Positions 3,954 through 62,035 of a stretch of 64,000 nt of DNA are shown piece after piece. The stretch is from Chiridota heheva (taxonomy: Eukaryota; Echinodermata; Holothuroidea; Apodida; Chiridotidae). The notes beneath the pieces are model-generated. The model was not told the origin of the DNA. It saw only the letters and a program-made list of their open reading frames with translations, and did not search any database. Numbering within the stretch: position 1 is the stretch's first letter; each line of letters starts with the position of its first letter. The DNA lies in the NCBI GenBank assembly GCA_020152595.1, contig JAIGNY010002010.1:143501-207500 (forward strand), in the 5' to 3' direction. Position numbers and translations under genes: made by a program.

Positions 3954-4527
3954 TGAAGGAATACTCCCATGTTTTTTTTTTTGTAACATTTTATAAGAAA
4001 GAGAACAATTTTAGAAAATATTAAGTATAACAATCATGTTGATATGTTATTCCTACCAGGAGATAATCAAATTTTAAGGTTCACAAAAAATGCCAATAAA
4101 TGAATAGGCTCAGTATGACATCACAGCAACACATTCTCCCACAAAGTTTGTATTTCATTCAAATCTATCTTCCTTTTTTATAAGTAAAACCTGCTAGAAA
4201 AATCATTTGATGAAAGTTAGGTGTTTATATACATTGCCAAATATACCCTACTTTAACAACTTTTAGAAAATTGTTTATAATCATACAGAAACAACCGATT
4301 AATGTTCAAAGAAATACATAAACATTTAAAATGGAATTGCCTCTATGACATCATCAAACACGAATTCATCATACTGTACAAAAACTTTCAAATACAATTG
4401 GAAAATATTAAAAATTCATATCTCCTGAACGGAATATGATATAAACCTGATTTTTGTACCAAATTGGCTATAGCAGTAAGTTCTTTCAAATAAAATTTTA
4501 CAAAACAACAATGGGAATATTTCTTAA
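3954..4527. mobile_element. Family A MITE, copy 1 (574 bp)
   Basis: The ends are inverted: GAAGGAATACTCCCATG at the left and CAATGGGAATATTTCTT at the right. The right subterminal region carries a CTGAACGGAATATGATATAAA block also seen in the copies ending at 34247 and 40668. Length agrees with the 572 bp of copy 3. It is non-coding. Confidence 0.65.
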
Positions 4528-23446: not shown

Positions 23447-24363
23447 ATTTGATGCTCCAGCTAATGAAAATATAGCTTTATTTTAATGGGAGATATTCGG
23501 TGGTATTTACCGAGCCAATGTTATTATATATGCTAAATTTCTTCGGATTGCGCCGAGTGAAATTTGAGTATTTCAAACATTTTTAGTGAATTTTGGAATG
23601 CAGAATTCGTTAAAACTAGGCTACGCAACAATATGAACTGTTAATTTATCAACATTTCAATCTATTTAATGCAAACATAGCAACACAGTAAAATATCCAA
23701 AAAACGCTTAGGATATGATAAACACTGCAAAAATCCGAACATATCCGAGTCGAGCTAAAAATTGTTGATGAAATTAATTTTGTCTAAATTCCCACAAAAT
23801 CTTGACTTGGGTACCATAGATTTTCTAAACTCCCATCAGTAAAACAAAATAAAACTTTTAATAAGGTATAATTATAGGTAATTATAATTTTACACTTGAA
23901 GAAAATTTGTGGAAAAAAATTCATAAGAAAATTTCAATTAATTTTCTTTAAAATATATTAAGGTTAAGAAAGGGAGGATGAGATGTTAACCTTCCACAGT
24001 ATTCATACTAATCATATCTACATATACAGTATACAACAAAACTGTAACAGAACATCAATAATTTCTTTACAATTTTGCTACTGTATTTCATAATTTGCTT
24101 GATCACTGAAATGACTCATAGTTGAAATAAAATAAGGCATACATACATGCAGCAAAAGAATTGAGGTATAAAGAAGGTAAAAAGACTTTTATGACTAATA
24201 ATGTCAACACTTTAAAGGAGACATAAAGTTTGATATCATTATTATTACATATGATAGAGGATACAAAGCTTAACCAACTGCCAAAAACAGCATGTCAAAA
24301 TCTTATTCCTATCTCAAGTTATTCATGTTTGAAGTCGACGCATGAAGGCTGCCATTTTCTTTA
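23447..24363. other. No gene seen
   Basis: AT-rich spacer left of the large transposon. It contains no recognised repeat or frame. Confidence 0.5.
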
Positions 24364-24529
24364 TAGTCTGGTTGCAAATAGCAAAAAGATGCTTCTAAAT
24401 CGATTTGCTAAACATTTTGGGTACAAGCTGGAAACAGGTCCATATAGATAAAATAGGTATAGGAGATAACAAAAATACCTGTTTCCAATTTTTCTTTTTT
24501 TTTTGGCGCCATTTTGAATTTCAAAATGG
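24364..24529 (+). repeat. Left terminal inverted repeat of the 6.8-kb element
   Basis: About 160 bp pair with 31041-31196, roughly 70% alike by eye, with gaps. The most conserved blocks are CTAAACATTTTGGGTACAAG and GGCGCCATTT. Confidence 0.65.
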
Positions 24530-25630
24530 TCGCTTTATTGAACATAGTATATATAAATTATCTCAACTTTTATGTTAGATACAGGACTATTGTAGGTATT
24601 ATGTTAGCTTTTTATGGTAGATGACTTTATAAGACAATTTTAGATGTTTCTCATTTATCTAAAAATGGCAATCAGCTAAAAAACAAAATGGCGATTAAGA
24701 AAATCAAAATGGCCGCTATAATAAATTGTCAAAAATAATATATTTTTAAATTTTACTTCTAGCTGAACAATTTTGCAAACAATTTGATTAACTCCTAAGT
24801 TTGCAACATTTTGATAGTTTTATATCAGATGCATCTGGCAACCATGTGACAGAAATTTTAGCACTGCTGCAGTAATATATGTCACACGCATGTGCTCTCA
24901 AGATTAATGCAAAATAGAGGTAAGATATCTGCATTTTTAAAGATAGGTGCAAGGCTAGGTTTATTAAACATGTCAAATGAATATAGAAAATATGTGCTAT
25001 ATATGTTCAGATCGAAATTATCCGCTAACAAGGTAAAACATCATGTTCAGTGTTACTGTTGTACCTACATATATCAGTTCTACGACAAATGTAAAATACT
25101 TAAGAATATAATTGTATTCATATAAATTTGCATTAAGTAGAGATTACCATCAAATGCATGCCTGACGTTACCTTAAGATAATAATCCGAGACCTAACTAC
25201 AATTCAATTCAATCTGACAATGTTAGATTTACTAGCAAACTTCCAGCAATGAGTATACACCTTAGAAATTGTACATGGCCGTTTGTTTGAACATGTTTTC
25301 AAAATACCTGACATTTGGTTAGTATCATTACTTTAACAAAGGCTTCATGGAGGGAAGGACTGAGTGTATGTTATAGATAGAGGTGCGACTGGGCAATAAC
25401 AACTTGTATTTGTCTGAAATTTGTATCCCTGTCCTCCTTTTAATTTTTGTTCTAATGAGCTTTTCAAAATCCTTTTAATACCACTCAATTTTGTATTGGT
25501 TTAACCCATGGACCAGTGCCTTGTTAAATCTTATGATTGCATATATATCCTACATTTGACAAAATACATCAGTTTGGTTTCTTACAAAGGAGTAAAACAT
25601 CTTTTAACTTTCCCTCCAAGATTATCAAGA

Positions 25631-26352
25631 TGGAGTCTGCAGCTTTAATCAGAAAAAGAGTGACAGAGTCTGAAATTGAGTGGGAAATTGCATCTTGTGT
25701 CAAGAGGTTAGGTTCCCTAAGAAAAACATCTTTTGTCGTCGGCTACACCAGAAGGAATTGCCCGAGTAATTGAAAGTGCCCTGGAAAAGAGAAATACAAT
25801 GACACTAAGTTTATAGGACGCACTAGACCGTTTGAAAATAGTCAACCCACGGGAAACTGACAAAAATGTTCTTTGGCATAGACCCTGCTATAGCGTATTT
25901 ACAAACCAAGCTCACATAAATCGTCTCAAAAGCAAAGGTCAGCGAAATATTACCATTTCATCTAGAGAGTCAACTCCCCTGGAAGATGAAACTAATCTGA
26001 AAAATTCATCAAGATCGAGAAGATCATCGCTGCCTTCGGTAGACTGGAACAAGTGCATGTACTGCCAGGATGATATACCTTACTCTCATTTACGTCAAGT
26101 TCAGACTTTCCCAACATCAGAAAAAGTCCTGACCCTCGCTCAGTTTGATAGCGTAATGAGACACAGATTAGCTGGAGTACATGATCTTATAGCTGCAGAG
26201 ACCAAGTATCATTTGAAATGTTATACATGTTTTTTGAAGAAGTACAGTAAGCTTAAAGAAAACCAAGATAACATTCCAGAAACAATTTGCTTTGAAAATG
26301 TAATGGCTGATCTTGAAAAAGGTGTTGCTGAGATGGACACATTTATACATTA
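25631..26352 (+). pseudogene. N-terminal zinc-binding part of the FEN1/XPG-like element protein
   Basis: The reading starts MESAALIRKRVTESEIEWEI. It shifts by one frame near 25735 and reads on through a TAG at 25814 into WHRPCYSVFT and SVDWNKCMYCQDDIP. It continues with LAGVHDLIAAETKYHLKCYT. The C-x2-C at CMYC with the later H-x3-C at YHLKCY looks like one zinc site, and HRPCY a second. The DL(I/V)AAE.(K/H)YH..CY block is a hallmark of the family as I know it. The TAG and frameshift show that this copy is dead. A stop follows EMDTFIH at 26351. Confidence 0.65.
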
Positions 26353-26379
26353 ACAAGCATTTGGGAACAATATTCTAAT

Positions 26380-28424
26380 ATGCTTCTCACAGATTTTGCG
26401 ATGGTTTCAGGGGTTTACAGAAGTAATAGGTTCAAGGAGAAAATACAGAGGTATCTTGGTGATAATGTGATTTTTGTTCAACCCTTGTGTACTACAGATC
26501 CAGCTAGTATGTCCTTCTGTGGCTCAAGATATGGCTATGGAAAAATTTGTAGAAGATATGACAGAGGTGCAAGGAATAGATATTTGTGAGGCTTCTATGA
26601 GTAACCAAGTAGAAAATGACGACACTGATATTTTAAGCGGGATTTTTAAAGTGGCTGTAAAACTACGTCGGGACATTGAAGCTACAGCTAGTCATGACCG
26701 TTGGAGGAATTGATGAGGAACATGCGCAGATGGTAGTGCCAGATAATCTTTACTTTCTTATTCGTCTTCTCTGCAATGAAGATGTATTTGATGTTGAAAA
26801 TGAGAGTCAAAAGGAGAATGCTCTTAGAACGAAAATTCTCAGTATTTGTCAAGACATCATTTTTCTTGCTTCTGGAGGGCAGAAACTAACACCAAAGCAT
26901 ATTGGTCTTGGCGTTACTATTCACCAGGCCACGAGGTCAAAAGGGCTCATAAAACTTCTCCATGCAGCAGGTCATTCTATCAGCTATGAGCATGTTATTC
27001 AGATTGACAAAGCCATTGCCGATGATGCTCTTCAGCGTTACAATGACCATGGAAAAGTGATGATACCACGTAATTTTACCACTTGGGAAAATTGTGGATA
27101 TGTCCGTTATGCAGACGACAATATCGATATCAATGAAGAAACACTCAGTGGTATGGACACTTTTCATGCAACACAATATGTGGCTCTTCTAAAAAAAGCA
27201 CCAAATGAGCCAAAAAGAGAAATAAATGTTAAGCTAAGATCCAACAGATCCAAAACAAGTCTTCCATCAGAAATGAGTGAGCTTCAAAACTCAAACATGC
27301 TTGCAGCCAAACTAGAACCAGTGATGCGAAAGATGTACAGCTCACTTGGTACGACCCAGACAAGGAAATGATAGCCAAAGCATTCTGCATGGACATGACA
27401 TGGATTCTTTTTGCGACAAGAAAATCAGGAAAACCAACAAGTACCTGCCTGGAGTGGATTCAACCAGAAAGTGTCAAAGAATGATTTGCCACAAACTGAA
27501 GTTGGGCCTTTTCCAATAATCAATGCTCCTGCTCATGATTATGACACGATTTGGACAGTGATGAAAAATTGTCAAGCAATGACAAAGAAGCTAAATGCAA
27601 CATACACAGTAATTACCTTTGATGAAGCACTCTACAACAAAGCTAAAATGCTTCAATGGGAGAAGTTGGAAGATTGCAAAGATTTTGTTATCATGTTAGG
27701 AGGCTTCCACACACAGATGAATTTTTCAAAAGTGATTGGTCAGTTCATGCAAGGAGCTGGTCTCAATGATATATGGGTAGAGAGTGGAGTATTTGGAGAA
27801 AACACAGCAGAGAATATTCTCAAAGGAAAGGTGTGGAACAAAGTTACACGTGCACATAAACTTACACTTGAAGCACTTTGGACAATTCTTTGGCCAAAGT
27901 TTATTGTTTGGGCACAAGAGACTGAGAAGGAGTTAGGAAGCAAGTTGAGAGAAACAGCAGGGGGAAGATTATTGAAGGGTTTTCCAAAGATGATGATGAG
28001 CAGATAGAATCGACACTGGCATTATTCATTGAAGATATTGTACCCATATTAACACTTCTTGATGAATTTGATGCTGACCACAAGGACCTAACAACATTCC
28101 AATTTTGGAGGAAGTATATGCATCTTGTTACTATTCTTCTGAGATTTACCCGTGCTCTTGAGATGGAGACTGGGCGCTGTACCTTTCGTGTCGCTAGCTG
28201 AAATGTTACCCTGGTTTGCTCTCTTTGACCATGTTAATTACACCAGGTGGGGTATAATTTTTCTAGCAGATATGAAGATGCTACAGGAGACAGCACCAGA
28301 GGTTTACCAAGGCTTTGCAGATGGTGACTTGGTACTAAAGAAACTTCACAAAGATTCAATCAAATCCCTGATGACCAAGCACTTGAGCATATCAACAAAG
28401 CGGGGCAAAGTTGCGGTGGTTTAG
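26380..28424 (+). pseudogene. Central region of the FEN1/XPG-like element protein
   Basis: Family-typical blocks continue in shifting frames: VYRSNRFKEKIQRYLGD, VPDNLYFLIRLLCNEDVF, ICQDIIFLASGGQKLTPKHI, LLHAAGHSISYEHVIQIDKA and NLPQTEVG-like sequence. Then come FPIINAPAHDYDTIWTVMK, YTVITFDEALYNKAKMLQWE, FVIMLGGFHTQMNFSKVIGQ and ESGVFGENTAENILKGK. The last is LPWFALFDHVNYTRWG. Frameshifts lie near 26470, 26690, 27370-27410, 27990 and 28190. I know of no assigned function for this part. It may be a large helical scaffold joining the zinc and nuclease regions. Confidence 0.6.
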
Positions 28425-28533
28425 TTGGCATTACCGCACAGAATCAGCACGCGAACGTTGGTGTCTTACATACAACGACGGGCTCAGCTCGCCAAGACAC
28501 AAAGAAAATGTATCATGTGACGAGTGAGCGGAT

Positions 28534-30333
28534 TTGCAACATAAAGATCTGGGACCTAAGCGAATGGAAAGAGATCAGAAAGATATCACAAAACTTGTTC
28601 AAGAATTTGAGCGCTTTGATGTATTTTCCAATGATCCGTCAGACCTGATATCAATCACCACAGGAGATGTTGCTAGTACTGATGTGAAGAATGACTTTGT
28701 GAAAGCAGAGAAAACAGGAAAGAAGTTAATACACGACTTTGTGAATGACAGACTCATTAAAAAGACAACAAAGTTCCATGATAAAATCAAAAGACAGAAA
28801 CTTAACACGTTTGGTACAATGTACAGTCATACTGTAAATGTGGATAAAGTAAAAACAACCACTACCAAGGCACGCATCAATCTTTTACGTCAAGTGATTG
28901 TTGCATTAGATGCTGGACGTGAAGTTGATATAGATGGGTTGCTGGAACGTGAACTCTCACCTGTGCCTTTATCAATAGCAACTGTTGATGAAAAGCTGAG
29001 ATATCCATCAAGTAAATCAGATTTAGGCAAAATTCTAGATCAAGGTAAAGCACAGAATCTACCACCAGTCAGCAACAGTCCTACATGTACTATTGTGGAT
29101 GCTATGGCAGTAATTCAGTCTCTTGGCAATCATATAGGAGCAAAAACCTTTGGTGAATGGTGTGACAACTTTCAAAAGTCAATTTACAAACATTTTTCTG
29201 AGACATGCAACAGGGTGGACATTGTTTTTGATCAATATCTGGACAACTCCATTAAAGGTGGTACACGAAACAAGCGTGCAAGTGGAAAAAAACAAGGGGA
29301 TAGAAACCAGAGTAACCAGTAGAGATCAGAAAATTGGCAGCTGGGAAAGATTCATTACACTAGGGAAAAACAAAGAAAGTCTAGCAAACTTTCTCTGCAC
29401 ACAAATGATAAATCATCCCTGTGAAGATCCTAACAAGGAGCTGGTTCTTGGCGGTGGTTTCTCAAACTCAGATGAGGCATGGTCTTCGTCTGGCAGAGAT
29501 GTGTCAAATCTGCGATCAAACCACGAGGAGGCTGACACGCGTATCCTACTTCATGCTCAAGATGCAAAGAACTCAGGATTTCAACTACTTAATATTGTAT
29601 GCCGTGATACTGATGTGTTGGTGCTTCTTGTATATCATATGCCCAACCTATGTCAACAAGTGTGGATGCAAGGAGGGACAGCAAAAAAACAATCTTTCAT
29701 TCCTGTTCATCATATCCAAATTGATGACAAGGCAAGAGCATCATTGCTTGCATTTCATGCCCTTACAGGCAGTGACACAACAAGCCAATTTGCTGGAATA
29801 GGCAAAAAATCGGCGTGGAAGGAATTTGTAAAGCACCCACAACTGCTTGAGCGGTTAGGTGAAGCTCAAGTTCCTGATAAAAAGGCTATGTCTGATGCGG
29901 AAGCATTTGTTTGCAAATTGTATGATCCATCTACTGAATCAAGTAAAATACAAGAAATCAGAAGTGCATTTTTTCACAAGGTGAAAACAAATGTTGAGAC
30001 ACTACCACCTACTGCAGATGCTCTACATCTGCACATTAGAAGAGCCCATTACCAGACATGTGTATGGAAGATGGCTCTTGAACAAAATCCATCACTACCA
30101 TCTCCAGAGGAGAGCGGCTGGTTTCTTAGTACAGATGGAATCCTGAAACCGCGCCTTCTCACAGTGGACTCAATGCTAGAAACGTGGCCAGAACTTATAG
30201 CATGCAGTTGTCCTCTCCAGGGTTTGCGGTGTGCAACACGCAGATGCAAGTGTACTTCCATGAAAGTTCCTGCACTCGAGGATGTTCATGCACAGAGTAC
30301 TGCCGAAATCCACAATCTTTGCCTTTTAATATA
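28534..30333 (+). pseudogene. FEN1/XPG-like 5'-nuclease and CXC region of the element protein
   Basis: What is seen, in order: CTIVDAMAVIQSL (Asp codon 29098), DIVFDQYLDNSIK with Arg/Lys following (Asp 29230), HEEADTRILLHA (acids 29525, 29528, 29534), CRDTDVLVLLV (Asp 29606 and 29612), then HALTGSDTTSQFAGIGKKSA (Asp 29774). This is the order and approximate spacing of the FEN1/XPG active site (D34, D86, E158/E160, D179/D181, D233), followed by its helix-turn GIGxKxA. About 130 residues later a cysteine cluster ACSCPLQGLRCATRRCKCTS resembles a TSO1-type CXC motif. One frameshift lies in the A-run at 29286-29292. Another near 30268 is implied because the next frame continues CTRGCSCTEYC. The nuclease reading is my inference from motif order. 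Confidence 0.65.
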
Positions 30334-30479
30334 CTATGATGCAGTCATTTCTCAAATATACCTTGTATGAGTTTTTGTTTTCATATCGTAGCAAGCTATG
30401 TTTTCCTTTAAATAATCTCAAGTTGAAACAGTTGAAGTCAGCTTCCAGCAATGGTGTTTGGGAAATAATTTATGAAAGC

Positions 30480-30905
30480 TATCCATTTCAAAATCAAATA
30501 TGGCCGCCATTCCGCCATTTTGGAACTAAAAATGGCCACCAACATCAAATTTATCCAAATAATTAAATCACCAGGTTTTATTTTACTTTGAATCAAATTT
30601 ACATACACCCACCTTAATTTTCTTTCAATATACTGAGAAGTGCAAGATATACTGAATGGAACAACTTTTTGATGTTTTGTCTAAAGTTCGAAGTAGAAAC
30701 AAACCTTTGGGGGCCATTTTGAAAACAAAGATGACGAGGTTTCCAAAAAAATTCTGAATGATACACGCTCTATATTTTATTTCAGTAACAGCTGTGAATG
30801 AACTATTATCTATCATCATCTTTAAACTTAAAAGTTACTGTGAAAATATGTTCTGTTTAAATTATCTGGAAAATGGCGGCCATTTTGAATTTCAAGATGG
30901 CTGCC
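30480..30905. repeat. Subterminal ATGGCCGCCATTTT motifs of the 6.8-kb element
   Basis: ATGGCCGCCATTCCGCCATTTT at about 30500, GGGGGCCATTTTGAAAAC at 30709 and AATGGCGGCCATTTTGAATT at 30871 resemble inverted motifs at 24665-24720 on the left. Clusters of this kind are plausible binding sites for the element's own protein. Confidence 0.5.
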
Positions 30906-31040
30906 AACTGCTGAACATATATATTCTTGTTAAGACTTTTTATTCTATATAAGATCAACATTTCTACCAGTTATTCAATGTGAACCTTACCTAAAACATG
31001 CCAAAATACTCATATTTCTATAAAATATGCTCTATTTGTG

Positions 31041-31196
31041 CCATTTTGAAATTAGAAATGGCGCCACCTCAATATTTTTTTGGTGGAAACAGGTTTTTAG
31101 ACTCTTATACACCTAAACTATTAATTAAAATCATTTCCCGACTTGTACCCAAAATGTTTAGCACTTGTCATTTTTTGGCCATTTGCAACCAGACTA
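31041..31196 (-). repeat. Right terminal inverted repeat of the 6.8-kb element
   Basis: It pairs with 24364-24529. The outermost shared block reads TAGTCTGGTTGCAAAT on the minus strand. Confidence 0.65.
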
Positions 31197-31199
31197 TTA

Positions 31200-33010
31200 A
31201 TCCTGTATTGCAATATTGTGCATGCCAAAATTTCCCCAATAAGGGTAATTCAGCTGATGTCACGAGGTCACGTGACTTTGTTTACATCAGCATTTTGTGG
31301 ATCAAAACCACTGTCCATGAAGCAATATCTTTCATACGGTGAAATGGTCAGTCAATTATTCACAGTTAATGCACATTATTACCTTAGGCATTATGATACA
31401 CAGCTATTTTCATAACCAGTTTGAAAACAAATTCCTCCCACTAAAACACCTAACACGGATGAGTGATTTCAATCACAAAAGGGCCTTGATTATTCAGCTC
31501 TGGCTTTGTGTAATCTTATACACAAATAACCTTGGACTACTTGGCTGTGGTGTGCATGGGAATGGCAGATAAACAATCATTGTTTAAAGCGGACACACAA
31601 TATACACTGAACAGGAAGTCGGGTTGGTAATTGTCATACCCGACTTTTCAGGATTAACTCAGATGTCGGGTGCGGGTAGGCTTAAAGAGAAAGTTTTTGG
31701 CATGTCGTCTGCTGTACACTTAGTTAGACTTACATACATTTGCATGTTATTATATCAGATTATTTTTGTAAGATAATTATGCTGGAATCTTGCTGTGCCG
31801 TTGGTTGCACTAAAAAGTGTGTAAGATTGCTAAGGGAGTTATGAAACTTGATCAGTACATTTGTTATTTTCAATTCTATTATATGAAATAAGGATTATGC
31901 CAGACTTGATGTCTCCTTTACGATTTGATCAGGAACCTAAAATGACAGATCCCTGCATTGATAACCATGTAACATTATCCTCGCATTTCCTGCTATTCTC
32001 CCTTGGGATTATATACAAGTATCATACAGTTGGACTATACAGCACAGTAGCACGAATCTTTATGCCCTAATCATGTAGTTCCCCAATTTTCTGGATTAGG
32101 GCATGGAAGTATTTACATTGAAAATCATGTATCACACAATAAAGAAAAAGTCAAAATTGTTTTTGATATCAAAACTTTATTTATTTATTTAATCTAAACA
32201 ATTGATACAGCAGTAGCCAAACTTGTCTACTAGTGTTCCACAAAGAATAAAATATCAGAAATCTTCCATAACATCATGAAACTTTCCCTCTAAAAAACAG
32301 AAAATGAGCTCTAAATGATGCGCATCATTCAAATTGATTTAATCCTAATAATGCATCACAACGCAAACGTACAACGTGATTGCCTGCATCCTTCTTCGGG
32401 CTCACGCGACAGAGCGTATGAATTTCACTCGAGCATGTTTGAATTACGCACTCAGCATACCTAACTACCATTCCATTTCTGAAGCCGTAAACAACCAAAT
32501 AAAGTAGCAAAGTAAGTGTGGAAAAAGGCTCATTTCCTCAGGAATTTCGCTTTGTAAACTGTAATGAATACGGTACACGTAATTGCTTTCTCAGACTAAC
32601 CGAGTTGCTTTCTTGTAAACATTAGGTTTTAAAATTTTAAGGTGTATAAATTTTCGCTTAGAAGAAAATGGTGTCGCTCCAACAAAGCAGTGTACTTGTT
32701 TTTTACATAGAAATGCATAGTGAGTCGTTCTCACTAACAGTACAGTGGATTACAGCATGTACTTGACCTTGACCAATTTTTTTTCTTCTTTATATTGTAC
32801 AGTATTGCGCACTAAGGCTTAGTAATCAAAATAATTTTACAGGATGCCCCTCCCCACCCCCTCACAACACACATTAGGCCCCAGAGAAATCTAATTGCTG
32901 CCTACTGTACATGATACAAACTGATTTTAATCAAAAAAGCATCTTGTTGCATATGCAAACAAAAAATGGGAAATACACTACTGTAAATCAAATCCACACT
33001 TGAGGCTGAG
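31200..33010. other. Spacer with several perfect inverted repeats, no gene
   Basis: Perfect short palindromes are present: AAGTCGGGT...ACCCGACTT (31616-31646), ATGCCCTAATC...GATTAGGGCAT (32062-32104) and AATGATGCGCATCATT (32314-32329). A 20-residue frame from 31779 (MLESCCAVGCTKK) resembles the start of a THAP zinc finger but ends at once. No gene is supported. Confidence 0.5.
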
Positions 33011-36959: not shown

Positions 36960-38395
36960 TCCTATCTGGCATATATCAAGGTGTATAGGGGTGTATAGGG
37001 CTTTATATAGCCATATAAAATTTGATATGATTCCATATATAAGGAAATTTTATTTATATCTCAAGTTTTATGGTAAGGTTTGGTTTAATGGGGTTTAACG
37101 GCATTGTGACAGAGTCAAGCGTGCCAAGAGGGTGTTTAAATAATTAAGATGCAAAGGTTAGGAAAGAGATGCATTGGAAGAGGAAAGGATGGAGAGGAGT
37201 GAAAATATTAGAGGAAATAACTTGTAGATGGAAAGGTGGTAAGAAGGAGAGAGGGGGAGGGCAGTCAGATATATTATATACAGAAGGAATATTTTATTTG
37301 AAATAAAAACTTTATACATTCTGTATAAAGCCAGATAAAGTACATGTATATACAGATGGTATATTTTATATGTATACAGATTTATATGGCTGTATAAAGA
37401 ATGATATACAGTACCTTAGTAGATATATAAAGTTTATATACATATAAGGATGTATACAACTATATAAAGTCAGATATAGCATATACAGAGGGCATGTTTT
37501 ATTGTGCATATACAGATTTATATGGCTTTATAAAGCATGATATACCTATACAAAATTTATATACAAATAAGGATTATACAAGTGTATAAAGCCAGATATA
37601 AGTATATACAGATGGCTTATTTTATATTCATATACAGATATAAATGGCTTTATATATCTTAGTAGATATATGTTTATATACATATATGGAGATTTATATA
37701 TACAAAGGGCGTATTTTATAATATATACAGATTTAAATGGCTATATAAAGCATGATATACCTTTAAGAAGATATATAACGTTTATATGCATATATGGATG
37801 TATACAACTATATAAAGCCAGATATATTGACTTATTTTGTAATTTATTCAGATTTAAATGGGATGATATACATATAACGTTTGTATATAAATGTCTATGA
37901 GAGCCAGATAAAGTTTATACAGAGGGCTTATTTTATATGTATATACAGATTTATATGGCTTTATAAAGCATGATACACCATAGTAGATATAAAAGTTTAT
38001 ATACATATAAGGATGTATACAATTATATAAAGCCAGATATAGTATATACAGAGGCTTATTTCATATGTATATACCTTAATAGATATATACAATTCATATG
38101 CATATATGGATAAGTATACAACTATATAAAGCCATATATAGTATATACAGAGGGCTTATTTTATAATATATACAGATTTAAATGGCTATATAAAGCATGA
38201 TATACCATATAGTACATACATTTTATATACATATAAGGATGTATACAACTATATAAAGTCAGATATAGTTGATACAGAGGGCTTATTTTATATGTTTATA
38301 CAGATTTATATGGCTTTATAAAGCATGATATATTTAAGGAGATAAATAAAGTTTATGAAAAAATATGGATGAATGCAACCTTATGAAGCTGCATA
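36960..38395. repeat. TATA-rich degenerate tandem array (~95-130-bp units)
   Basis: About ten units each contain GGATGTATACAACTATATAA, AGCCAGATATAG, CAGAGGGCTTATTTTATATG, CAGATTTATATGGCTTTATA and AAGCATGATATACC. Unit length varies from about 95 to 131 bp. The array runs directly into the (AT)n block at 38406. A related array in the opposite orientation lies at 45655-46430. Confidence 0.85.
37077..37140 (-). mobile_element. Possible LINE 3' tail
   Basis: GGTTTGGTTTAATGGGGTTT and ACGGCATTGTGACAGAGTCA resemble the minus-strand LINE 3' ends at 11486 and 58580. A purine-rich stretch (37141-37270) follows, as it does beside the 58580 copy. Confidence 0.45.
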
Positions 38396-38403
38396 TAGTA
38401 TGC

Positions 38404-39425
<1,022 letters not shown>

Positions 39426-51690: not shown

Positions 51691-51739
51691 AAAAACCTCA
51701 ATGCCCAAATAAGATTATAGAAATATACATATACTGTAG

Positions 51740-54160
<2,421 letters not shown>

Positions 54161-58579: not shown

Positions 58580-60739
58580 TTTGTTTGATAAAGTCTTAAC
58601 GGCACCACGACAACGTAGGTCAAATTGTGCCTGAGAGGTCAGATCATTTTGGAGGTAGGAAGGAAAGAAACCAGGGGGAGAATGAGAGAAATTCAAGAAC
58701 AAAAGCCAGAAAGCTGTGATCGAGAGAGGAGGTGCATGGGTAAAACAAAAACAAAGTAGAGAGGGGGTGGAAGAGGAGAATTAAATATGGTTGTAGAGGG
58801 ATGCATGATAAAGGAAGGAGATTATTTTATCCGGAGGATTTTTCTGGAAGAACTCAGCAATTGAGTTGTGGGGAGCGAGGGAAGCTCTGGGAAGGTTGTA
58901 CAGGGGGCAAGCAAGGAGAACGTGTCGGATTGTGAGGATGCAGTGGCAATTGTTACAGAGGGGTTGGGGGGAACCAATAAGGAGGTGGGAGTGTGTGAGG
59001 TGGGTGTGACCAATTCTAAGACGGGTAATATGAACGTTGTCGATACGAGAAAGGTTGTTGATGGTGGATTCGATCGGGATTGTGGGCTGGATGACATGGA
59101 GTTTGTTATCAATTTGGGAGTTCCATGAGGTTTGCCAGCGGTCACGAACAAGGGAAGCGATAAGCGGTTTGATGTCAGAGAGGGTTTTGGGAAAAGGGGA
59201 AGGGAGGAGGTTAAGGGCAAGCTTAGCGGCTGTATCAGCCCTGTCATTGCCAGGGATGCCAACATGGCTGGGTATCCAGAAGAAAAGTACACTTTTCCTG
59301 CAGAGGGTGGGAAAAAAGAGTTCCCGGAGGAGGAGGTGGCAGGTGAGGTTATCCCATTTAAGATTGAGTAATGAAGTAAGAACAGCCTTTGAGTCAGAGA
59401 AAATGGCAAAGTGACTAAGAGGAGAGTACTCAATAAAGTTGAGGGCGAGGAGAATGGCCTTAGCCTCGGCTGAAAAGATGGATGAGTAGTCAGGAAGTCT
59501 GCTACTGAGGGTGATGTCTTGGATGATGGCAGCAGCAGCTGTCTTGTTGCCTTCCTTGGAGCCATCAGTATAGATGGAGGTGTAATTTGAGAGTTGGTCT
59601 TTGATTTGGTTGTGGAGATTGATGAAGAGGTTAGGGTGCGTTTGAGTTTTGTGATAAGTGTAGAGGTCTAGGTGGACAGAAGGGAGGGGGGTGGCCCAAG
59701 GAGGAAAAGTGGGCCAGGAGTAGGTGCCGAGAGTGGCGGGGTTGATGCCAAGATGGAAGAGGTCTGATTTAATGCGTAAGCTGAAGGGAGGGGATAGGGT
59801 TATAGTCCTATCAAAGAGGGAGGAGAAATTGGGGTACCTAATGAGGTTGTAAACAGGGTTCTGGGTGTTGGTGAGGACTCTAAAAGCATAGGAAAGGCTA
59901 AGCCTTTTACATCTAAGTAGGAAGGGGGGTTCGTTGGCTTCAACATAAAGGCTAGTGATTGGGGAGGTCCTGTAGGCTCCTAGACAAAGCCTGAGGGCTT
60001 TATTTTGGATGGTGTTAATGTGGTTGAGGTATGAGTTGTGAGCGACACAGTAGACAATATTGCCATAGTCAAGCTTAACACGAATGGTGAGCCTGAAAAT
60101 TTTGAGGAGAGCATAGTGGTTCGCTCCCCAAGTGGTGTTGGAGAGCAGTCGGAGGAGGTTGAGGGAGCTATTGTATTTTAGTTTCAGGCTGGTGATGTGT
60201 GGCTTGTAGGTGAGCTTGGGGTCTAGAGTTAGACCAAGAAACTTTGTGTTTTCAACTTTAGGGATGCGATTCCCATTGAGCACAAAGTTCGAGTTGGGGT
60301 GGAGGTTGTTGAAATGACAAAAGTGCATGCAGACTGTCTGGTCTTTGGAGAATTTAAAACCGTTATTGTTGCTCCAGACTTGCAGCTGGTTGAGGCTGGT
60401 TTGGAGCCTATTTTCAACAATAGGAAAGCTAGGGGAGGAGTAGAAGATGGTGAAGTCATCCACGTAGAGGGTACGTTTGATGCTGGGGCCAAGGTTATTC
60501 GCGATGTCATTAATGCTCAGGTTGAAGAGAGTGGGGGAGAGGATGCTGCCTTGGGGGACGCCCTCTTCTTGGGGGTACAGGTTGGAGAGGGTGTGGCCAA
60601 TACGAACTTGGAACTGCCTGGGTGAGAGGAAGTTTTGAATAAAGATGGGGAGGTGGCCTCTGAGGCCAATGGTGTGAAGTTTTCGGGTAATGCCGTATTT
60701 CCAAGTAGTGTCAAAAGCTTTCTCGAGGTCAAAAAAGCT
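58580..60739 (-). mobile_element. RNase H-bearing non-LTR retrotransposon (I/Nimb-like), 5'-truncated
   Basis: The 3' end has a purine-rich UTR (58640-58800 as seen on the plus strand) and ends in GTTAAGACTTTATCAAAC on the minus strand, with the (CAAA) style tail also seen at 11486. The coding region is open to the truncation point. 5' truncation is the usual outcome of target-primed reverse transcription. Confidence 0.8.
58781..60739 (-). CDS. Reverse transcriptase-RNase H polyprotein, C-terminal 652 codons, intact
   Basis: One uninterrupted frame runs from the truncation point to a stop at 58781. RT motifs: FFDLEKAFDTTW (palm Asp, motif A), EEGVPQGSILSPTLF (motif B), YVDDFTIFYSS (YVDD, motif C), FLGLTLDPKL. 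A connection follows with VKLDYGNIVY and EANEPPFLLR. RNase H motifs: YTDGSKEGN, FSAEAKAILLAL, FSDSKAVL and WIPSHVGIPGNDRADTAAK, supplying the D-E-D-D set plus the usual His. The C-terminus has CNNC...H....C (LCNNCHCILTIRHVLLACPL), a zinc knuckle usual in this clade. The apurinic endonuclease and first RT fingers are missing. The absence of any stop suggests a young insertion. Exact clade (I, Nimb, Outcast) is not settled. Confidence 0.88.
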   Translation of the reverse strand, partial: SFFDLEKAFDTTWKYGITRKLHTIGLRGHLPIFIQNFLSPRQFQVRIGHTLSNLYPQEEGVPQGSILSPTLFNLSINDIANNLGPSIKRTLYVDDFTIFYSSPSFPIVENRLQTSLNQLQVWSNNNGFKFSKDQTVCMHFCHFNNLHPNSNFVLNGNRIPKVENTKFLGLTLDPKLTYKPHITSLKLKYNSSLNLLRLLSNTTWGANHYALLKIFRLTIRVKLDYGNIVYCVAHNSYLNHINTIQNKALRLCLGAYRTSPITSLYVEANEPPFLLRCKRLSLSYAFRVLTNTQNPVYNLIRYPNFSSLFDRTITLSPPFSLRIKSDLFHLGINPATLGTYSWPTFPPWATPLPSVHLDLYTYHKTQTHPNLFINLHNQIKDQLSNYTSIYTDGSKEGNKTAAAAIIQDITLSSRLPDYSSIFSAEAKAILLALNFIEYSPLSHFAIFSDSKAVLTSLLNLKWDNLTCHLLLRELFFPTLCRKSVLFFWIPSHVGIPGNDRADTAAKLALNLLPSPFPKTLSDIKPLIASLVRDRWQTSWNSQIDNKLHVIQPTIPIESTINNLSRIDNVHITRLRIGHTHLTHSHLLIGSPQPLCNNCHCILTIRHVLLACPLYNLPRASLAPHNSIAEFFQKNPPDKIISFLYHASLYNHI

Positions 60740-61100: not shown

Positions 61101-61474
61101 GTTTAACAAAACTTACAGCACTCCTCCCAAACGTAATTGAAACAACACAAATAAAAAATAATTCAAATGGGAAGATATATACAGTATTGCATAATCAATG
61201 TAATTTCCTCACATGCTAAATTTCCTAATGGTGTATTTATCAATCAAAACTATTAAAATTTTCCCCAACACACTTTTCAGCAGTGAATGATTTATGGTCT
61301 ATAAGTGTGCAGCTGGCAGCAGGTGGTGCTGTCTCATAGAAAGAAAAGAAGATATACAGTTTATAGGGTTATAAGGGTTTATCTCCTTGTGGAATATCCA
61401 ATCCAAGAGAATATCTTACTCAATACCAGGTATTTTATGAAAACTATGAACTGCAAATCTCACTTATTAAGCAC

Positions 61475-62035
61475 CTAAGGTGCCAGGTGTTACAGTGAAA
61501 AACTTGCAGCATGTTCAGAATTATGCTGCAAGGCTCATCACAAGAAGCAGCCGTTTCACTCCATCACTTTATCTACTGCAAAATCTTCATTGGCTACCTG
61601 TCTCATATAGAATTAAATTTAAAATTTTAATACTTATTTTCAAATCCCTTCATAACATGGCCCTGTTATATCTGACAGAAATGTTTCATTATATACAAAC
61701 TACTTACCGCCTTCGCTCTCAAAACCACCTCATCCTTTATGTTCCAAAAAGTAAACTTACATATGGCAATCGCTTTCTGCAAATATTTGGCCCAAATTTT
61801 TGGAATGACTTACCTCTTTCAATCAAATCTGCTCAATCCCTTAAATAATTCCACACCTTGCTTAAGACTCACTTATTTAATTGTGCTTTCAAGTCCTCTT
61901 CATAATTTTCTTGTTCTTTGTTTTCTTTATATTTCATGCTCATCTTTTTACACATTTGTAATTATTTTCTTTATATACATATTTTGTAAGGCGCATTAGA
62001 ATAAGTTATTTAGATAATGCGCCATATAAGTGTAA
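61475..62035 (+). pseudogene. L2/CR1-type LINE: end of ORF2 plus 3' UTR and terminal hairpin
   Basis: The peptide LQHVQNYAARLITRSSRFTP, then LQNLHWLPVSYRIKFKILIL, then KSLHNMALLYLTEMF and FGPNFWNDLPLSIKSAQSLK is the well-known C-terminal RT thumb region of these LINEs. A TAA at 61846 ends the frame early; the family continues F...LKTHLFNCAF, and HTLLKTHLFNCAFKSS is indeed legible next. The 3' UTR ends in a perfect 9-bp hairpin GGCGCATTA/TAATGCGCC (61990-62023) and TGTAATAAACTTAAACTTAA. Confidence 0.85.

Follow-up and report, generated by a model that had tools for sequence, protein, structure and literature searches.

A stretch of 64,000 bp from the genome of the holothurian Chiridota heheva (assembly GCA_020152595.1, contig JAIGNY010002010.1, positions 143,501 to 207,500 of the forward strand; hereafter the window) contains at 24364–31196 a discrete unit of 6,833 bp, bounded by terminal inverted repeats (TIRs) and flanked by target site duplications (TSDs). 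This element is a recently active cut-and-paste DNA transposon, and in our opinion there is a high probability that it belongs to the Academ superfamily and, within it, to the AcademX lineage. The kind of element is very probably known already, the window family being its new member. The copy in the window was inserted recently into an older repeat and is dead. The central part of the encoded protein matches the Pfam family DUF6589, which is probably the transposase core of Academ, and the C-terminal part is likely, but not proved, to be XPG-like, as judged from its amino acid motifs. An earlier interpretation made from the letters alone (the sequence-only reading) had seen the right parts of this element and had drawn from them too novel a conclusion.

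Termini, target sites and genomic copies

The ends of the element and the adjacent duplications are as follows:

24361–24363, no strand: left TSD, TTA; identical triplet on both sides, gap-free junction in all three unfilled sites read base by base
24364–24558, plus strand: left TIR, starting with TAGTCTGGTTGCAAAT, imperfect over about 195 bp; from the alignment of the ends and 40 scored genomic matches to the left 197 bp
31014–31196, minus strand: right TIR; from the alignment of the ends and the exact terminal match
31197–31199, no strand: right TSD, TTA; identical triplet on both sides, unfilled sites

The 16-bp termini TAGTCTGGTTGCAAAT were found in inverted orientation and with no mismatches at 24364–24379 (plus strand) and 31181–31196 (minus strand), while shuffles give an expectation of 0.08 matches in the window at up to two mismatches. 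Local alignment of the two ends extends the similarity around these termini to imperfect, gapped TIRs of 195 bp (left) and 183 bp (right), and the earlier estimate of about 160 bp of inverted ends was fair.

Identical 3-bp flanks are present in 15 of the 16 fetched copies with both ends and in 16 of 17 when the window copy (TTA) is included; L014 is the only both-ended copy without them. Of the 20 copies fetched for this count, four were excluded, L016, L017 and L018 for lack of a recognizable right end and L027 for lack of a left one. A random match of such flanks has a probability of about 1/64 per copy. The duplicated triplets vary among the copies and include CTA, ATA, TGT, AAG, TAC and others.

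Unfilled sites were sought with a query composed of the two window flanks joined by a single TTA. It gave at least 46 matches in the genome (best 40 of 4,740 candidates), 38 of which cross the junction; of the others, 2 come from the flanks in the window itself and 6 are partial. Five of the 38 junction-crossing sites are equal to the query in length, 13 are longer by 3 bases, and the others differ by −12 to +8. In all three sites that were fetched the alignment is continuous at the junction, and the bases by which L102 and L103 exceed the query lie about 20 or more bases to its right; therefore, insertion of the element took place between 24363 and 31197 and duplicated 3 bp.

The host genome (1.10 Gb, 3,744 contigs) contains at least 42 matches to a 1,751-bp segment of the coding region, with 93–100% identity (best 40 of 78 candidates), which place the element at 40 or more sites, the window included. 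This number is a lower bound because only 40 of the 78 candidates were scored. The left 197 bp gave at least 40 matches (best 40 of 158 candidates), and 39 of the 40 scored left ends are accompanied, 2.8–4.8 kb away, by a same-strand coding match, the remaining one (C45) being situated at a contig end. Thus, the inverted ends occur together with the gene, and the view of the element as mobile, multi-copy and TIR-bounded was confirmed by its ends, its TSDs and the number of its places.

Two observations concern the sequences at these ends. The older host repeat, which occupies 24213–24363 and 31197–31920, itself has inverted ends, the arms 24213–24258 and 31875–31920 being 80% complementary; 4,740 first-look candidates for this repeat were counted in the genome, and the best 40 were scored. 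In addition, a GGCCATTTTGAATTTCAAAATGGC-like unit is repeated in several direct and inverted copies near both ends of the element, at 24504–24725 and 30483–31066, and similar subterminal units were noticed in a divergent family (family B, described below). It is possible that these units are candidate binding sites of the transposase.

Encoded protein and its divergent relatives

The following parts of the coding region were recognized, all on the plus strand:

25630–30339: decayed coding region, from the start MESAALIRKR to the stop after SLPFNIL; bounds from copies L016 and L010
25680–26250 (approximate): N-terminal zinc-binding-like part with two CxxC..HxxxC units; by eye, in the L016 frame
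27114–27128: DDNID with the first candidate catalytic Asp, invariant in all four families that cover it
27380–28480 (approximate): match to DUF6589 (PF20231); window equivalent of residues 385–751 of the L011 frame
27615–27623: TFD of VITFDEALY with the second candidate catalytic Asp, invariant in five of five families
29060–29850: FEN1/XPG-like part with VDAM, VFDQY..K..R, HEEADTR, DTDV and GSDTTSQFAGIGKKSAW; from translated frames, alignment A2 and comparison of profile hidden Markov models (HMM-HMM)
30200–30325 (approximate): C-terminal CXC (tesmin/TSO1-like) cysteine cluster; from PF03638 scores

Frameshifts and stops interrupt the coding part of the window copy, and ten plus-strand frames of at least 80 amino acids, some of them overlapping and not all of them coding, are spread over 25817–30370. 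The one coding block of the sequence-only reading exists as single frames in other copies, whereas the window copy is not one open frame. These frames comprise 1,212 amino acids in L011, 991 in L010, 721 in L009 and 613 in L016. The last residues of the L011 frame are out of frame and L010 lacks about 225 bp, while L011, L010 and L016 jointly cover the whole protein, whose intact form, to judge from the overlapping frames, would have about 1,570 amino acids from MESAALIRKR to SLPFNIL.

Variation among the 17 both-ended copies was counted over codons 1–1,100 of the L011 frame, only codons with a single change being used. Variants present in at least two copies comprise 27 synonymous and 29 nonsynonymous changes and 2 stops, and singleton variants 64, 160 and 20, respectively, the neutral expectation being 27:70:4 per cent. 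Shared variants are enriched in synonymous changes, and therefore purifying selection acted on the frame before insertion, in the period when the family was spreading. Singletons are close to the neutral expectation except for an excess of stops; hence, the copies decayed after landing.

Searching the same genome with the protein gave at least 157 matches at E ≤ 1e-3 (best 150 of 763 candidates), many of which, apart from those of the window family itself, are 27–36% identical. Eight fetched relatives represent four further families, namely B (L093, L094), C (L095, L097), D (L096, L098, L099) and E (L100). The nuclease part of family B is 31% (L093) and 30% (L094) identical to that of the window family, and its domain order is the same as in the window element. 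Family B has near-perfect 20-bp termini TAGTGGGG..CCCCACTA; in L093 the element is 5,395 bp long, its ends being TAGTGGGGCGGATATG and the inverse of this sequence at 412 and 5806. Both copies of this family have 3-bp TSDs, CAA (L093) and AAT (L094). Ends were sought for families B, C and D; for C and D none could be identified in 6-kb pieces, in which the copies are alike almost throughout. Inverted repeats occur in L100 at 681–825 and 4093–4236. In family D, a long self-complementary simple repeat is located 3' of the coding part (L096, 703–1014; L098, 695–970; L099, 5145–5486). No relatives were found in phages by tblastn of the L011 frame, in viral contigs by limited scans with six peptide patterns or two degenerate patterns, or in prokaryote contigs by a limited scan with one degenerate pattern. 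Three viral contigs with the string EEADTR (L082–L084) were rejected as relatives, as their proteins are short and look unrelated.

The claim that the element encodes no DDE transposase was made because its central part had been left unassigned, and it is not supported by the match obtained for this part. PF20231 matches the L011 frame with E = 7.2e-7 and 28.7 bits (cut-off 27) over profile positions 20–385 of 410; Pfam lists this family as one of unknown function. Alignment A3 showed that the Asp of DNxD (four of four covering families) and that of [FLV]D[EQ] (five of five) are invariant, as are, by reading, the His residues of T[TF]H and G[GA][FL]H. DUF6589 has been shown for the window family only and is extended to the other families by alignment, because nine frames of L093, L095, L096, L098 and L100 gave no Pfam match above cut-off, DUF6589 included. 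In the whole host genome 34 matches to DUF6589 at E ≤ 0.01 were found, 26 of them above the cut-off, and at least 14 lie, according to their positions, inside copies of the window family; there were none in 14 control genomes. Two matches are located in single open frames, at C1581:927313–928386 (1,774 amino acids) and C3232:753606–754685 (1,831 amino acids), which possibly represent intact relatives. In the literature covered, which left out most subscription journals, no paper naming DUF6589 was found. TIRs with TSDs of fixed length are the trace left by DDE transposases, and from the conservation, the TIRs, the TSDs and the literature we infer that the central DUF6589 part is the DDE core. 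In PMC9587614, a C/DxxH motif is placed between the second D and the last E in Kolobok, hAT, P, MuDR and Dada. By eye, this motif was not encountered here and G[GA][FL]H stands in its place, the last E not being pinned.

The flanking cysteine-rich parts, zinc-binding-like at the N-terminus and CXC at the C-terminus, are both present as described earlier. No match to the former was obtained in the Pfam scan. PF03638 recognizes the latter in the relative L096 with E = 4e-4 and 21.0 bits, below the cut-off of 23.5, and gives 9.3 bits (E = 1.8) for the window family.

All the C-terminal motifs named in the sequence-only reading (VDAMA, VFDQY..K, EEAD, DTDV, GSDTT, GIGKKSA and the cysteine cluster) are found in translated frames, although the frame of the window copy shifts near 29300, within the nuclease part. 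The D-D-E-D-D spacings in L010 are 44, 98, 27 and 56 residues; the values given previously were 44, 26 and 56, the gap of 98 residues having been omitted. Using the FEN1 catalytic residues that we take to be D34, D86, E158/E160, D179, D181 and D233, acids were found at all seven FEN1/XPG catalytic positions in order and, the gap of 98 residues apart, at FEN-like distances, together with a GxGK motif. In alignment A2 all five divergent families retain the acids of VDAM, FDQY, EEAD, DTD and GSD, except in row L098, whose frame is lost at DTD, and in one piece of L100 that is misaligned. The element has in common with FEN1, XPG and EXO1 the order of its acid blocks, the K and R that follow the second Asp, and GSD..GIGxK. 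Unlike these enzymes, it has Asp at the place of FEN1 E160 and a stretch of 98 residues separating the second Asp from the E block; its nuclease part is fused to a transposon protein and has no sequence match in Pfam or PDB.

A family profile (A2 columns 11–300) was compared with a profile of archaeal FEN1, for which 53 loci were collected and 49 proteins used. The P values of the HMM-HMM comparison were 0.0027 (global mode) and 0.017 (local mode). In global mode, by our reading, FEN1 D34, D86, D179, D181, D233 and the GIG..K turn are paired with their counterparts in the element, the E158/E160 block being displaced by about 1 residue. After column shuffling, the real score was reached by 2 controls in global and by 3 in local mode, out of 200 each, one of them with the odd score of 131.6; reversed profiles scored 6.4 and 14.1 against the real 17.0 and 25.0 (global and local, respectively).

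Classification and alternative explanations

The nuclease of AcademX elements is of the XPG type. The source paper on this lineage is reportedly that of Kojima, 2020 (Mob DNA 11:15). According to PMC10045372, TSDs are 3 or 4 bp in AcademX and 9 or 10 bp in AcademH, which is related to the encoded nuclease and helicase, respectively. The window element resembles AcademX in combining, within a length of several kb, TIRs and 3-bp TSDs with a transposase-like core and a likely nuclease. AcademH belongs to the same superfamily, but its longer TSDs and helicase, as given in PMC10045372, set it apart from the window element with its 3 bp; no helicase was present among the Pfam matches of the element proteins. 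A bivalve library described in PMC10294476 contains 100 curated Academ elements, 5,565 bp long on average, and the paper reports an Academ expansion in bivalves; this mean speaks for the assignment, although the 6,833 bp of the window element differ from it, and the likeness is one of architecture. RecQ helicase is mentioned for Academ in PMC3627910, and AcademH in fungi is discussed in PMC10799480.

A number of results weigh against this classification and against the nature proposed for the two enzymatic parts. The assignment to Academ is based on architecture and on the XPG type of the AcademX nuclease, and no paper containing both words, Academ and XPG, was found in the literature covered. 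The Pfam name of DUF6589 gives no function, and a profile of the central part found no transposase in PDB. The third acid of the core is not fixed: it may be E of ESG, present in four of five families, or an acid in or after FDHxxYxRW. Both XPG profiles failed to match the element: the XPG models of the Pfam scans, PF00752 (XPG_N) being examined only as part of them, gave nothing up to E = 10 with the element proteins, and a genome search with PF00867 (XPG_I) led to 5 places, none of them in the window family. With the archaeal FEN1 sequence HMM, the whole L010 frame scored 8.1 bits (E = 0.062), its best stretch lying outside the nuclease. The score of the nuclease part itself was 1.1 bits (E = 8.7), which 5 of 1,000 shuffles exceeded. 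Ungapped blocks scored 12.4 against archaeal FEN1, in wrong places, and 422 of 3,000 shuffles were as high, in part because the loop from the last Asp to GIG is one residue longer in the archaeal proteins. The Smith-Waterman score was 52 against a mean of 38.5 for shuffles (sd 4.5, maximum 57, n = 300), and the alignment to the top-scoring FEN1 fell outside the motifs. Finally, the HHalign probability for the family and archaeal FEN1 profiles was 4.5% (global) and 2.7% (local). The FEN1/XPG type claimed in the sequence-only reading is thus upheld by the order of the acids in five families, but not by any XPG match in Pfam or PDB, and its HMM-HMM support is modest.

The absence of an XPG match in Pfam could also be explained if the C-terminal part were a different metal-dependent domain of the PIN/NYN type, which would be compatible with the name Academ. 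Searches of PDB with the nuclease, by phmmer or by profile, gave no XPG match, and the profile found a weak and nonsignificant similarity (E = 0.43), over the first acid block, to 5mq9 (YacP), which we take to be PIN/NYN-like. We regard this explanation as unlikely, as the C-terminal part agrees with FEN1 in the order of its five acid blocks and in the GSD..GIGK motif, and four blocks are paired exactly in the global HMM-HMM comparison, with the E block about 1 residue off. It is improbable, too, that the element is a DDE transposon from outside Academ, of a KDZ-like, Kolobok-like, unnamed or new superfamily, whose PIN/FEN-like nuclease was acquired independently of Academ. Kolobok elements have TTAA as TSD, whereas the 3-bp TSDs found here are of varied sequence. 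In favour of such an origin is the presence of other nucleases in Kolobok lineages, as stated in PMC9587614.

The most far-reaching proposal of the sequence-only reading was that the FEN-like nuclease itself is a new kind of mobility enzyme, with no DDE transposase present. The conservation of the FEN-like acids in five families, the single protein of the element and the failure of the central profile to find a PDB transposase agree with it. Nevertheless, it seems highly improbable, given the DUF6589 match with invariant Asp residues in the centre and the TIRs with fixed 3-bp TSDs typical of DDE transposases. Moreover, Academ is already listed among the DDD/E superfamilies (PMC9587614), and a nuclease has been reported for AcademX (PMC10045372). 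Two related variants are, taken together, quite unlikely: the FEN-like nuclease may be obligatory for excision, with two nuclease folds in one polypeptide, or DUF6589 may not be a DDE domain and the FEN-like activity may move the element. Under the assignment to AcademX, it is most reasonable to regard the nuclease as an accessory domain in a transposon whose kind is already known.

Surroundings, possible mechanism and significance

Elsewhere in the window, an open frame of 652 amino acids at 58784–60739 (minus strand) shows, by eye, the reverse-transcriptase motif YVDDF and the RNase H motif YTDGS, and appears to be a fragment of a retrotransposon without long terminal repeats (non-LTR). A frame of 125 amino acids at 61471–61845 (plus strand) resembles, also by eye, the tail of another non-LTR reverse transcriptase. 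Long AT-rich simple-repeat tracts, open in several frames, occupy 38337–38846 and 51693–52534.

In the mechanism which may be proposed for the AcademX-like element, the N-terminal zinc-finger-like part and the C-terminal CXC cluster probably bind DNA at the ends. The DUF6589 core, probably a DDE/D transposase with the RNase H fold, would cut the TIR ends and join them to a target staggered by 3 bp; this stagger is visible in the TSDs, and the chemistry of both steps is inferred. The FEN1/XPG-like 5'-nuclease part probably trims or opens flap- or hairpin-like intermediates in the course of excision or gap repair.

Summarizing these data, it may be concluded that an apparently unknown multi-copy family of this holothurian has been revealed as a recently active Academ-like transposon. 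For the Pfam family DUF6589 this gives a likely meaning, that of a transposase core. The five divergent families in one genome provide material for testing the role of an XPG-like nuclease in transposition.

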